Part shown: positions 2,854 through 51,170 of the stretch, in pieces
Numbering within the stretch: the first letter of the stretch is position 1
Layout of the letters: every line of letters starts with the position of its first letter
Assembly (NCBI GenBank): GCA_947468275.1
Contig: CANIKO010000001.1
Span: 124,001-188,000 of the forward strand
Direction: 5' to 3'
DNA: 64,000 nt
From: Bacteroidota bacterium
GTDB lineage: Bacteria; Bacteroidota; Bacteroidia; NS11-12g; UBA9320
The notes under the pieces: generated by a model
The model's database searches: none
The model's input: only the letters and a program-made list of their open reading frames with translations
What the model was told of the DNA's origin: nothing
Made by a program: the position numbers and the translations under genes

Positions 2854-4074
2854 TTAAAGATTCAAATCCTCAAGATTAGTTTCAATTACCCTTTCATAAT
2901 ACTTCACCAATTCATTCACCACAATTTCGGGTTTTAGTTTTTCAACACGTTCGATGGCTTTTTGGCCCATTATTTTCTTTTGCACTTCGGTCATTTGCAA
3001 TCCGTCATCAATAGATTTTATAAGACTTAGAGGATTGCTATGTTCACACAATAAGCCTGAAATATTAGGGTCAATGAGTTGCTCAAAACTGGTTTTGTAA
3101 GTTCCAATTACAATTTTACCTAAGGCCATAGCTTCAATGCATGTGTTAGGGAAATTGTCAAGGCGTGAGGGTAAAACCACCAGTTCGGCATTTTGAATTA
3201 CCGGATAAAGTAAGTTATGCGGTGTGCTTGAATACCAAATAATTCGATGGTTAAATTTTCCGGCTTTTTCTTTTAATATCTCAACAATTGGTTTGCCATT
3301 AATTGAAATATCTTTACCAATAAATACAAAGTAGTGTGACGGATGTTTTTCAAAAAGTTGTTCCAAAATATCTGCGATATCCTGCAATCCCTTAAGAAGT
3401 GATAATGTTCCAAAATACAGTAAGTAAGGATTATTATTAGTTTGAGTTAAAATTTCGTTAAGTCGTTCATTACTTAGATTTGAGTTTTCCAGCACAAACG
3501 GAGTTTCTATTAAAGTTATTTCCTTATTGAATTTTTCAGCAATATGGTTCCCGATTATTTTACTGGGGCCAAAAATATGCTTGGCCTGTTTTAGCATTAT
3601 ATCCTGTAAATACTGTTTTTGCCAAAGGCGAAAGGTTTGTTTATTGCCACTGGCGGCATCCAATAATTTTTGATAACTGGAAATACGAATGACAGAAGGA
3701 ATGTTTTTTGGTTTAAAAATAGCCAACGCCATTGAATTGGTATAATGGACAATATCAATAGGACAGGATTTGTGATACAATGAGATCCGCTTTTTGAACC
3801 GATAGCTTCTCACCATAAAAAGTAAGGCAGGATTTAATCGGAAAAGCGTAATGGCGTTTAACAACCAATACCACCATGTAAGTTGCTTTTCATTAATCCG
3901 GATAACCGTAATACCTTTATACTCTATATCTTCGTTAGTGGACGAAGCTACAAAAACTATCGGTTCATGGCCTAAGGATTGTAATGATTTACTCACCCTA
4001 TAAATATAATTTGACAAGCCGCCATCATAGGTTTTTTCAGTAAGAAACTCGGTGGTGGCTAGGGCTATTCGCAT
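2854..4074 (-). CDS. Glycosyltransferase family 4-type (GT-B fold)
   Basis: A 406-residue cytoplasmic GT-B glycosyltransferase. The N-terminal half has the GGLSNYIYRVSKSLQSLGH acceptor-side motif of glycogen-synthase-like and GT4 enzymes (residues 18-36); the C-terminal half has LLYFGTLSLLKG (about 221) and the nucleotide-sugar motif VVLPSRLDNFPNTCIEAMA (about residues 303-321), with the E-x7-E-type region close to it (IEAMALGKIV). Such enzymes transfer a sugar from a nucleotide donor to a lipid-linked or surface glycan; the sugar cannot be read from sequence. It is divergent from asnB and lies in a group of surface-carbohydrate genes. Confidence 0.88.
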   Translation of the reverse strand: MRIALATTEFLTEKTYDGGLSNYIYRVSKSLQSLGHEPIVFVASSTNEDIEYKGITVIRINEKQLTWWYWLLNAITLFRLNPALLFMVRSYRFKKRISLYHKSCPIDIVHYTNSMALAIFKPKNIPSVIRISSYQKLLDAASGNKQTFRLWQKQYLQDIMLKQAKHIFGPSKIIGNHIAEKFNKEITLIETPFVLENSNLSNERLNEILTQTNNNPYLLYFGTLSLLKGLQDIADILEQLFEKHPSHYFVFIGKDISINGKPIVEILKEKAGKFNHRIIWYSSTPHNLLYPVIQNAELVVLPSRLDNFPNTCIEAMALGKIVIGTYKTSFEQLIDPNISGLLCEHSNPLSLIKSIDDGLQMTEVQKKIMGQKAIERVEKLKPEIVVNELVKYYERVIETNLEDLNL

Positions 4075-4167
4075 TTGTGGTATAAGTTTTTAAAAATTAA
4101 ATGTTTTGATAATAAAAAAAGTAGTTCACTAAGAATTAATCGTTTTATTTTGAAGCAATATTAATTT

Positions 4168-6063
4168 ATGTGCGGCATAGCTGGAAAAATTTCTTTTAAC
4201 ACTTTTCAAAATTATGAACAAGAAGTGAAAAATGCCTGCGATGCAATGGCTTATCGCGGGCCTGATAATATTACTGTTAATACTATTGGTAATGCTACTT
4301 TAGGACATTGTCGATTAGCAATTATTGATTTAAGCCCTGAGGCCAATCAACCTTTCTATTCAGAAGATAACCGTTATAGTATTGTTTTTAATGGTGAAAT
4401 TTATAATTACAGAGAGGTAAGAAGCCAACTTGAAAAAGAATTTGGCTTAAAATTTAGAACTAATTCAGATACCGAAGTTTTATTAAAGGGTTTTATTGAG
4501 ATTGGCCCTAATATTTTGGAAAGACTTCGCGGAATGTGGGCTTTTGCAGTTTGGGATAATCAAAAGCAACAGTTGTTTATTGCCCGCGATAGATTTGGTG
4601 AAAAACCTTTGTTTTATTATTTTGACAATGGAGTATTTTTATTTGCTTCTAATTTATCTGGTGTATCAAATCTTATTACAGATAAGGAGTTGAATCCAAA
4701 GGCGATTTCTGAATTATTTGCCTACCAATATATCTCACAACAACAAAGTATTTATAAGGGGGTTAAAAAATTATTACCTGCTCAATATGGTTATGTTACC
4801 AAAGAAGAATTGAAATTATCAACCTATTGGGAAGTGAAATATGATGAAAAAATTGATATTTCATTTGAAGATGCTCAGGTAAAAGTTGAGGAAATAATGC
4901 ATAGCAGTATTCAGGAAAAATTAATTTCTGATGTTCCTTTGGGTTTATTTTTAAGTGGAGGAAATGACTCGGGGTTAGTTGCTGCTATTGCCTCACACTA
5001 TAAAAAAGGAATTACAAGTGTTACTTTGTCCACGCCTCAAAATCCAGAATTGGATGAGGCTGTGTATGCTAGGCAGATTGCCCAACTTCATGGACTCAAT
5101 TATAATCAGGTAGATTTAGAAATTGATTGTATTAACAAACTTCCTCAGTTACTTTCAATGATTGAGCCATTTGCAGATAGTTCAATTATACCAACTGCAG
5201 CAGTTTCAGAAAAAGCAAAACAGTTTTTAACTGTTGTATTAACAGGTGATGGAGGAGATGAAATTTTTGGAGGATATGGGATACCTGCATTACTTAATAA
5301 AATAAAACCAAGCTCCATGCCATTGGCTGCCATAATGGATGAATTATCCAACAGACGTTTTCAGCCGGGTTGGAAATATCCTCCCAAACTAGCCAATATA
5401 GAGCGTATGATACGCTATGGGGGATTGAATAGTTATTGCAACGCGATGGATTATGAACCATCTAACATTAGGAAATTACTTTTCAAATCCTCTTTTATAA
5501 ATGAACTAGAAACCGAGCAGGCTTATTTTCAAAAATCAATTATACGAAGTTATAAAGGCAATATCAGTAATCATGATATGATGTTTTTTCTTGGAGTTAA
5601 AGGCTATTTGCCGGATGATTTTTTAATGAAAGTAGATACTGGAACCATGTATGCTTCGATAGAATCAAGGGCTCCATTCTTAGATAACAGGCTAATAGAG
5701 TTTACTTCTAAGCTCAAACCGGAAGTGTTGATGCCTAATGGTCAAGAGAAATTATTGTTGAAGAAAATTTGTGAAAAGTATTTGCCTAAAGAAATTGTTT
5801 ATAAGAAAAAAACAGGTTTTAGAATACCTGTGAGAGATTATTTTAATGGCAAATGGACAGACTTACTTAGAGATTATATAAAAGAAGGAATTTCTGCCGA
5901 TTTGGGTATTATCAATATTGAAGGAAGTTTAAAATTAATTGACTGGTATCAAAAGGCTCGTCCTTCTCAAATGGAAAAGCTACTTTTCAGTATGTTAGTT
6001 TTTGAAATATGGTTACGTGTGTTTCATTTGAAACAGCAGTTTGGAAAAGCTGAATTATTATAA
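4168..6063 (+). CDS. asnB: Asparagine synthetase (glutamine-hydrolysing)
   Basis: A 631-residue class B asparagine synthetase-type amidotransferase. The N-terminal Ntn glutaminase domain starts MCGIAG with the Cys2 nucleophile and contains FNGEIYNYREV (about residue 73). The C-terminal synthetase domain has the PP-loop LFLSGGNDSG (about residues 261-270), where the usual SGGxDS is SGGNDS, and the later LTGDGGDEIFGGY. Length is typical. The reaction is ATP + aspartate + glutamine to asparagine; relatives within exopolysaccharide clusters amidate sugars or amino acids on glycans instead, and the context (glycosyltransferase, methyltransferases, flippase) leaves this open. Its 3' end overlaps the convergent methyltransferase gene by 6 nt. 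Confidence 0.92.
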   Translation: MCGIAGKISFNTFQNYEQEVKNACDAMAYRGPDNITVNTIGNATLGHCRLAIIDLSPEANQPFYSEDNRYSIVFNGEIYNYREVRSQLEKEFGLKFRTNSDTEVLLKGFIEIGPNILERLRGMWAFAVWDNQKQQLFIARDRFGEKPLFYYFDNGVFLFASNLSGVSNLITDKELNPKAISELFAYQYISQQQSIYKGVKKLLPAQYGYVTKEELKLSTYWEVKYDEKIDISFEDAQVKVEEIMHSSIQEKLISDVPLGLFLSGGNDSGLVAAIASHYKKGITSVTLSTPQNPELDEAVYARQIAQLHGLNYNQVDLEIDCINKLPQLLSMIEPFADSSIIPTAAVSEKAKQFLTVVLTGDGGDEIFGGYGIPALLNKIKPSSMPLAAIMDELSNRRFQPGWKYPPKLANIERMIRYGGLNSYCNAMDYEPSNIRKLLFKSSFINELETEQAYFQKSIIRSYKGNISNHDMMFFLGVKGYLPDDFLMKVDTGTMYASIESRAPFLDNRLIEFTSKLKPEVLMPNGQEKLLLKKICEKYLPKEIVYKKKTGFRIPVRDYFNGKWTDLLRDYIKEGISADLGIINIEGSLKLIDWYQKARPSQMEKLLFSMLVFEIWLRVFHLKQQFGKAELL

Positions 6064-48574: not shown

Positions 48575-49051
48575 TTATTTTAAAAGATAATTGAAATTTT
48601 TCTTAATATAAGTTTCTTCAAAAATATCATCATAATGAAACAAGCTATATAATTTAGTTTTGGGTGTGTAATAAATCATACAGGGCATTTTCTTTGAGTT
48701 GAGATTTAGGATATTAAATGGTTTATCCTTAGCAGGTAAAAAATAGATATGTTTTGCATTGGGAAATACTCCTAAAAAATATTTTTGAGATATTTTTCTA
48801 TCCTCTATATATGTATAATAATTTGTAATAATAATCAGATTCTTTTTTTTATTTAAAAATTTCGCAAGATTATCTTTACATCCAGTGCATGATGGTTCTA
48901 TTATAAAAACATAGAATGTTTCTTTTACTTCATTTTCAAACAAAATGGCAGTATCTCCTATTGCATTGATAACAATAAATTTTTCCATTTTATCTCTCTT
49001 ATCGAAAGAGGATAAAAAAATAATCAAAATAATTAATTTAATAAATTTCAT
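48575..49051 (-). CDS. Exported thioredoxin-like protein with CxxC motif
   Basis: A 158-residue protein with an N-terminal hydrophobic segment (KFIKLIILIIFLSSF). A beta strand FYVFIIEPSCTGCKDNLAKFL (about residues 47-67) holds a CTGC motif followed by a helix, as in the thioredoxin fold, then NLIIITNYYTYIEDRK and PNAKHIYFLPA as probable next strands, and MPCMIYYTPK at a position where thioredoxin-like proteins carry the cis-Pro loop. A role in thiol-disulfide chemistry in the periplasm is inferred; no named family is certain. It overlaps the preceding propeller-like gene by 14 nt and is the last gene of a four-gene unit. Confidence 0.68.
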   Translation of the reverse strand: MKFIKLIILIIFLSSFDKRDKMEKFIVINAIGDTAILFENEVKETFYVFIIEPSCTGCKDNLAKFLNKKKNLIIITNYYTYIEDRKISQKYFLGVFPNAKHIYFLPAKDKPFNILNLNSKKMPCMIYYTPKTKLYSLFHYDDIFEETYIKKNFNYLLK

Positions 49052-50231
49052 TAATTTTGTACTTTGAAATTACAGGTATTGGATCATTTTTCTTTAACCA
49101 GGCTTCTTTTTCAATCATCCATTCTTTTAAAGTGAATCCCATTGGATTAATTGGGGCTGAAAGTTCAAGTTTAATTAAATAATTTTTATTAAAAAAATGA
49201 TAACAATTATCACTAAAAATAAGGCAAAATGTACTGTCAGTTTTTCGGTTCATTTGAAGTGGGGTATTATCTTCTTTAATTGACTGACTAAATTCCCATT
49301 TACCATTACTTTTCCTTTTAAAAATATCAAAATAGTAGTTCATGAAATTCATATTATCAATTATTCTCTCCCTTCTCTTAATAAATAGACTTGAATCATT
49401 TATGAAATTAACACCTTCTAGTCTAGAAATTTTATAGTATGCAATGCTGTCTAACATTTTGTAATTAAAAAATCCATTATGCAAAGTCCTCTTGAAGGAA
49501 CCTGGTGGATTAATCCAATTTAGAGTAGGATGAATAACCTTATTTACGATTTGTAAATTAAAATTAACTTCATAAAAAATATAAGGAGTTTGAATAGCTA
49601 CCAAAATAGTTTTATTACTAAATGAAAAGGGGCTGAAAGGTAAATAGGAGGTATACTCAGGGTATGGAACGGGGAATTCTATGGTTTTGATTAGCTTTCC
49701 TTTTAGGTCATATTTGTCAATATAACATATTCTTGTTTCTTGTTTTGGGTGTGAAAAGTAATAATGACAACAAAAAAGAAATGAATCAGTAAGTAGAATC
49801 TGTATAGGGCTGACCTTTAAAGGGATAAATGTGTTTTTGCGATAATCTTTTTTGCTTTTTGTAAATAGTGCTACACCGTCCCAGGTTACTATTGCAATTT
49901 TATTCTTATTAATTGCATAGCAAATAAATTTTCTTTCCTTTAAATTCCTATCCTTTCTATACAATATTTCTGATTTCATTACTTCGGCATCGTTCTGTAA
50001 ATTTAGGTTTTTTAAAAAAAGTTTATTATTGTTTTGATAATAGAGTAATGAATAGGTATCGTCATTTGCTTGAATTAATACTTCTGATTTAATTCTTTTA
50101 TTAATATTTATTTCAGTGCTAACCCTTAATGATTCGAATTTGAATAATTGACTTTGACAAAATGAGTTTAATCGTATAAATAAAAAAGCAGAGCTAATAA
50201 CAACTCTGCTTTTAAAAAATAAAGATAACAT
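49038..50231 (-). CDS. Propeller-like exported protein (unknown, possibly 6-bladed beta-propeller)
   Basis: A 397-residue protein with an N-terminal hydrophobic stretch (VVISSAFLFIRLNSFCQS) that looks like a signal peptide with a Cys near its end. The remainder is a run of short beta repeats with aromatic endings (KIAIVTWDGVALFTKSKKD, ICYIDKYDLKGKLIKTIEF, TILVAIQTPYIFYEVNFN, YHFFNKNYLIKLELSAP), similar in look to the DUF4221 and 6-bladed beta-propeller families of Bacteroidota, though I cannot assign it firmly. It lies 11 nt after a small secreted protein gene and overlaps the CxxC gene, so the three are one unit. Confidence 0.65.
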   Translation of the reverse strand: MLSLFFKSRVVISSAFLFIRLNSFCQSQLFKFESLRVSTEININKRIKSEVLIQANDDTYSLLYYQNNNKLFLKNLNLQNDAEVMKSEILYRKDRNLKERKFICYAINKNKIAIVTWDGVALFTKSKKDYRKNTFIPLKVSPIQILLTDSFLFCCHYYFSHPKQETRICYIDKYDLKGKLIKTIEFPVPYPEYTSYLPFSPFSFSNKTILVAIQTPYIFYEVNFNLQIVNKVIHPTLNWINPPGSFKRTLHNGFFNYKMLDSIAYYKISRLEGVNFINDSSLFIKRRERIIDNMNFMNYYFDIFKRKSNGKWEFSQSIKEDNTPLQMNRKTDSTFCLIFSDNCYHFFNKNYLIKLELSAPINPMGFTLKEWMIEKEAWLKKNDPIPVISKYKINEIY

Positions 50232-50242
50232 TACTATTATAA

Positions 50243-50686
50243 TTAATTGGAGTAAATCATTAGATTATACTTTTTCCCTCCTTCTATTTCAGTTATCGTA
50301 GCTGTGATATAATATACAATATTATCAGAACCAAGTACACTAATAGTGGCAGGAAATAAGTTATCATCCACACCATCGCATAAATTACCGAATAATTGAT
50401 CACAATATAAAAATATATTTGACGGCAAATCTCCTGAATTTCCGCCACCTGGAGGTTCTATTGTTGTAGGACAAGTGAAACTCCCGTTCCCATAACAATT
50501 TATTGTAACATCTTGGCCAATCAATTTGCCGTTTAGGTCAAAATGGTCTTCCACGTTTCTTGGTGCTGCCGCATAATTGCCACCTCCATTATCTAGAACA
50601 ATTCTACAAACGTTATAGAAAAATTCAGCATTTGAATTATATGAGAAGGAAAATATAAGTCCTAAAAAAAATATTACTTTTTTCAT
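50243..50686 (-). CDS. Small secreted Cys-containing protein (NVEALA-like context)
   Basis: A longer frame opens at 50848, but the natural start is ATG 50686, directly before a signal peptide (MKKVIFFLGLIFSFSYNSNA). The mature part of about 127 residues is rich in Gly, Asn and Asp and has Cys residues in VTINCYGNGSFTCPTTIEPP and FLYCDQLFGNLCDGVDD. The CYGNGSFTC loop and the gene position before a propeller-like gene recall the small NVEALA-type peptides of Bacteroides, but this is larger and the signature itself was not seen. Possibly a paralogue of the next upstream gene. Confidence 0.62.
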   Translation of the reverse strand: MKKVIFFLGLIFSFSYNSNAEFFYNVCRIVLDNGGGNYAAAPRNVEDHFDLNGKLIGQDVTINCYGNGSFTCPTTIEPPGGGNSGDLPSNIFLYCDQLFGNLCDGVDDNLFPATISVLGSDNIVYYITATITEIEGGKKYNLMIYSN

Positions 50687-50753
50687 ACGCTTAATTATTA
50701 ATAGGGTCTGAAATAGTAAAAGTTGAGTCAACACTACCATCTTCATTTGTACT

Positions 50754-51170
50754 CTAGTTAATGCTAAAAGTTCTATAATAACTTTGCTCCGAAGTAGATA
50801 TAAATGTAATAGTCTGAGTGTTAAGTCCATTTGCTTGACCAGATTCAATAGTCACTTCAGCGTTATATATCATGTTATTTCCTGATGTTCTCTCTGCAGA
50901 TGTAAGTTGAGGGAAATTGTCCAAATCACCTGAGGGTGGTGCAACATTACTAGCTCCCTGTCTGCAGTGCAAGTCACCTGATTCTCTACATGTGATACTA
51001 GATCCAGTCAATACCAAACTTCCGTCAGAATTGATTGTGTAAGTATTGCATTCCTGCACAAGCCCATAGCCAAACCTAAGCTGGTCTCTGTGTTTTTTAA
51101 CTTCAATGGCGGAACTACTTATGCTGAACAGCAAAAGCATTAAAGAGATAGAAATTTTTGTTTTTTTCAT
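50754..51170 (-). CDS. Small secreted Cys-containing protein
   Basis: The start is set at ATG 51170 because a typical signal peptide follows (MKKTKISISLMLLLFSISSS); the upstream 23 codons of the open frame lack it. The mature part of about 118 residues has an early Cys (LVQECNTYTINSDGSLVLTG), then SITCRESGDLHCRQGAS and PPSGDLDNFPQLTSAERT. Its Cys-x(n)-SGDLHC and PP-SGDL order mirrors the CYGNGSFTC and PPGGGNSGDLP order of the next gene 67 nt downstream, so they may be distant paralogues. Function unknown. Confidence 0.6.
   Translation of the reverse strand: MKKTKISISLMLLLFSISSSAIEVKKHRDQLRFGYGLVQECNTYTINSDGSLVLTGSSITCRESGDLHCRQGASNVAPPSGDLDNFPQLTSAERTSGNNMIYNAEVTIESGQANGLNTQTITFISTSEQSYYRTFSIN

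Follow-up and report, generated by a model that had tools for sequence, protein, structure and literature searches.

Two small exported proteins with cysteine pairs, a propeller-like protein and a CxxC protein are encoded one after the other in the genome of a member of the Bacteroidota, which raises the question of what kind of system this gene set represents. The genes are located in the window analysed here, i.e. the whole stretch of 64,000 nucleotides at positions 124,001 to 188,000 of contig CANIKO010000001.1, where they span 51170-48575 in the order S1-S2-B-T. A preliminary description of this DNA compared them with NVEALA peptide sets in Bacteroides. Here, the coding status of the genes, the recurrence of their order, the properties of the encoded proteins and the relation to NVEALA modules and other known systems were analysed.

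Coding status of the locus

As had been described, all four ORFs are closely spaced or overlapping on the minus strand, and the reading frames of B and T share 14 bases (Table 1). Signal peptides of the four proteins were judged by eye. No match above the cut-off was obtained for S1, S2, B or T in Pfam or NCBIfam, and the cassette had no match among the PADLOC anti-phage defence models, so that the earlier statement that no standard annotation fits holds for these three resources.

Table 1. Features of the cassette in window coordinates
Feature	Position	Strand	Description
S1	51170-50754	(-)	small exported protein, ends early at in-frame TAG; L003 paralogue with 36% identity
S1 in-frame continuation past TAG	50753-50691	(-)	20 codons (STNEDGSVDSTFTISDPINN) then TAA; matches C-terminus of intact relatives
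S2	50686-50243	(-)	small exported protein, intact; homologue of S1
B	50231-49038	(-)	exported, ~400 aa, probably beta-propeller
T	49051-48575	(-)	exported thioredoxin-like protein; motif EPSCTGCK
Terminator-like hairpin, S-B junction	50213-50184	(-)	12-13 pairs, T-rich tail; covers B codons 7-16

Comparison with the cassette of a congener (G003:C14, matching MAG SJ44) yielded dN/dS values of 0.12 for S1, 0.14 for S2, 0.17 for B and 0.14 for T. All four genes are thus under purifying selection at the protein level, including the two small ORFs, for which selection for coding had been a point to be checked. The low dN/dS values, together with a gene order that recurs in the own genome and in many others, place the cassette beyond chance.

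In the window copy, a TAG at 50756-50754 terminates S1 where relatives have TGG, and the homology runs past this codon as STNEDGSVDSTFTISDPINN up to a TAA at 50693-50691. The congener S1 also has an in-frame TAG, at another position. Recoding of UAG was rejected because TAG is an ordinary stop codon here, terminating 12 of the 45 long ORFs of the window; the search of the window for a suppressor tRNA found no tRNA there. The TAG of S1 may be an assembly error. Due to the truncation of S1, the functional product of the window cassette is probably S2. Alternatively, the window copy could be decaying in the course of a loss of the cassette, as the differing positions of the TAG codons in the two species and the frameshifted B in G003:C5 would suggest. 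However, intact and constrained genes for S2, B and T are retained in the window as well as in the congener cassette, the second cassette of the own genome is also intact, and assembly errors are possible; decay is regarded as rather unlikely.

Properties of the encoded proteins

S1 and S2 are homologous (phmmer ~1e-6), and both contain a cysteine pair in a C-x7-C loop, CRESGDLHC at 50990-50964 in S1 and CYGNGSFTC at 50497-50471 in S2. The cysteine pairs of the preliminary description were therefore recovered in both proteins, whereas its spacing range of C-x(5-7)-C is to be narrowed, since 34 of 40 proteins of the S family have C-x7-C; 33 of the 40 have C-x3-G-x3-C with a central glycine. In the S1 of L074 the second cysteine of the loop is lost. 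Downstream of the signal peptide of S1, the segment KKHRDQLRFGYGLV (51098-51057) is identical in the window cassette and in its paralogue L003, and the related KVIKHRDHWGIWGGY was found in a different family at L134. The structure model of S consists of strands, loop, helix and strands at poor confidence (pLDDT 60), and the fold search with this model gave no match.

For B, a poor structure model (pLDDT 54) had 106 PDB fold hits at E<=0.001 with TM values of 0.3-0.47. The top hits of this low-confidence model were nearly all beta-propellers, among them envelope propellers in the form of BamB-containing complexes and BtuG. B is thus probably a beta-propeller, in line with its first description as a propeller-like exported protein. 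Membership of the TolB_like/DUF5128 propeller families was not borne out, as nine B proteins had neither a TolB_like nor a 6-bladed propeller match in Pfam (PF15869, PF17170), and the DUF4221 family, which had been proposed for comparison, was not matched either.

The motif CTGC of T is located at 48889-48878, and both cysteines of the CxxC are invariant across 21 aligned T proteins. The earlier assignment as thioredoxin-like agrees with the best PDB profile hits, which include several thioredoxins at weak significance (E 0.07-0.9), and with weak alignments around the CxxC to thioredoxins, StoA (3erw) and 3tdg. The T of the window has no clear lipobox. A scan of contigs with the T alignment detected 5 loci, all of them in Bacteroidota genomes.

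Recurrence of the gene order and the hairpin at the S-B junction

The co-occurrence of the genes elsewhere, on which the preliminary description had made its proposal depend, was observed across Bacteroidota. The own genome contains a second, intact S-S-B-T cassette (L003, contig C4), whose identities to the window copy are 31% for S2, 24% for B and 32% for T (S1, see Table 1), as well as an S-B pair (L073, contig C11); an apparent further copy at C15 turned out to be spurious. A serine-recombinase-like gene is located immediately upstream of the second cassette (L003 6515-8164), which might reflect mobility. Of 108 genomes from the order, 14 contained S, which was also present in phylum genomes outside the class. 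Within the class, hits were obtained in 12 of 395 genomes; no fewer than two of these hits (L142, L143) are false positives that match in the signal peptide and have no loop.

The neighbourhoods of the S loci were read, two of the loci (L076, L083) being located at contig ends. In 37 of the 38 loci that could be assessed, the last S is succeeded by an exported ORF of 360-460 aa; S occurs without B at L195, and one other ORF stands between S and B at L201. The iterated B profile, which recruited no unrelated ORF among 536, supports 31 of the 37 B-sized ORFs. Of the remainder, the partners at L032, L133, L138 and L144 were assigned from size and position alone, and those at L078 and L079 from size and position plus further comparison. 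A CxxC protein is next in 23 loci, including 8 of the 10 outside the class (L196-L203). T is absent beside 14 S-B pairs and is consequently dispensable at these loci, where its role could be taken by a different oxidase. The S gene has an XRE regulator as its neighbour at six loci (L075, L076, L085, L137, L139, L140) and a LytTR regulator at one (L134), which suggests a regulated output. The cassette G003:C14 is adjoined by a Cas9-like protein of 1483 aa with a Cas1-like neighbour (L028 2007-6458). In the cassette at L029, the B gene (3023-4245) is interrupted by an assembly frameshift.

The stretch with the window hairpin has an MFE of -18.8 kcal/mol (z -3.9). Terminator-like hairpins near or in the B start were identified at 17 of 37 S-B junctions, compared with 1 of 10 S1-S2 junctions, 1 of 25 B-T junctions, 1 of 18 T ends and 39 of 1140 random segments (3%). 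The enrichment is significant against random segments (Fisher, 2e-14) and against the other junctions (1e-4), both P values being optimistic because the loci are partly related and thus not fully independent. Most simply, many transcripts would stop after S, and the position of the hairpin suggests that S is produced in excess over B and T.

Relation to NVEALA modules and candidate function

NVEALA neighbourhoods comprise a peptide, a TolB_like propeller (PF15869) of ~350 aa and a thioredoxin-like lipoprotein with CTSC, often with DUF1573, and the modules of Bacteroidales thus have the same order of peptide, propeller and CxxC protein as the cassette. Of 120 genomes from a single family of the class, 59 had matches to the NVEALA profile PF14055; one 2.5 Mb genome (G579) contained 24 matches. 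The motif C-x-G-x-G-x3-C was present in 17 of 53 sampled NVEALA peptides, related sequences included, against a mean of 0.17 and a maximum of 3 in 5000 shuffles; the loop of S2 fits this motif, while that of S1 fits C-x3-G-x3-C only. A profile built from T proteins of S-B-T loci alone matched three thiol proteins of NVEALA modules at ~1e-5, with one unrelated ORF at 1.8e-4, in a single round.

On the other hand, PF14055 had no match in the own genome, nor did S1 or S2 match it in Pfam. S lacks the NVEALA leader and is larger (120-165 aa versus 70-110 aa), no TolB_like match was obtained for B, T is without DUF1573, and hairpins occur at 5 of 49 NVEALA junctions versus 17 of 37 S-B junctions. 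HMM-HMM comparison of B with NVEALA propellers gave weak similarity (12-55% probability, decoys <1%), and the iterated B profile did not recruit them. The likeness to NVEALA sets proposed in the preliminary description thus extends to gene order, a related T and, for about a third of the sampled peptides, the loop, but not to PF14055 membership. Judged from these comparisons of sequence and gene order, the cassette is the same kind of system as the NVEALA modules but falls outside the NVEALA family. Tentatively, and with rather low confidence, both could have branched from a single ancient system of secreted disulfide-loop ligands that extends across Bacteroidota, with their own propeller receptors and a common type of oxidoreductase; if true, this would be an undescribed route of cell-cell signalling or competition in a major phylum of gut and environmental bacteria. 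A search of the open-access literature found no paper on NVEALA or DUF6520.

The reading that we favour, and to which we give about an even chance, is that S1-S2-B-T is one copy of a Bacteroidota-wide secreted disulfide-loop cassette in which T oxidises the loop of S, B binds S and the attenuator favours S. S would be exported via Sec, and T would act as an envelope thiol-disulfide oxidoreductase responsible for formation or proofreading of the single C-x3-G-x3-C loop of S. A precedent is the CxxC accessory protein PedC, which increases the potency of co-expressed pediocin, presumably via disulfide formation (PMC4919988). B would be an exported beta-propeller binding S at the envelope, and the attenuator at the S-B junction would render S abundant and B and T scarce. 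The S-B complex could serve as signal, in antagonism or in capture; our preference is for a ligand with action between cells or on them. Three uncatalogued protein families form a conserved unit across a phylum and are linked to the NVEALA peptides common in Bacteroidales. Testable claims on disulfide formation, binding and expression ratio follow from the shared loop, from the hairpin and from the relatedness of the CxxC proteins.

Antagonism in the strict sense, with S as a secreted antibacterial protein matured by T and B protecting the producer, appears unlikely. To our knowledge, a propeller of 400 aa is unlike known immunity proteins; moreover, the cassette has no dedicated exporter and no PADLOC match, and selection is purifying gene-wide, not positive. 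The patchy distribution within the order and the several diverged cassettes per genome are compatible with antagonism, as is the layout, in which the product gene is first, followed by an attenuator, partners and a CxxC accessory, as in bacteriocin operons (PedC, PMC4919988). Pediocin-type operons likewise pair a small secreted product containing Cys with a CxxC helper of its own. However, they include an ABC transporter, which is absent from the cassette, and an immunity protein, in place of which the cassette has the propeller. Envelope housekeeping, in which S would be a structural protein or cargo in the periplasm or outer membrane, B and T assembly factors, and no intercellular role would exist, is considered just as improbable, as the strong purifying selection and the BamB-containing complexes and BtuG among the fold hits of B are opposed by the patchy presence, the rapid divergence and the XRE or LytTR regulators beside S in 7 loci.

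Small exported Bacteroidota proteins are also found in DUF6520 (PF20130), to which S1 was not assigned because its score of 19.4 bits is below the cut-off of 25.4. Unlike in S, no C-x3-G-x3-C was seen in the DUF6520 proteins listed. Their genes (L145-L154) adjoin a membrane protein that by eye resembles the redox-type MauE/DoxX, and these neighbourhoods are possibly a third peptide-plus-redox arrangement. At L149, a DUF6520 gene is located beside that of an exported protein of 360 aa.
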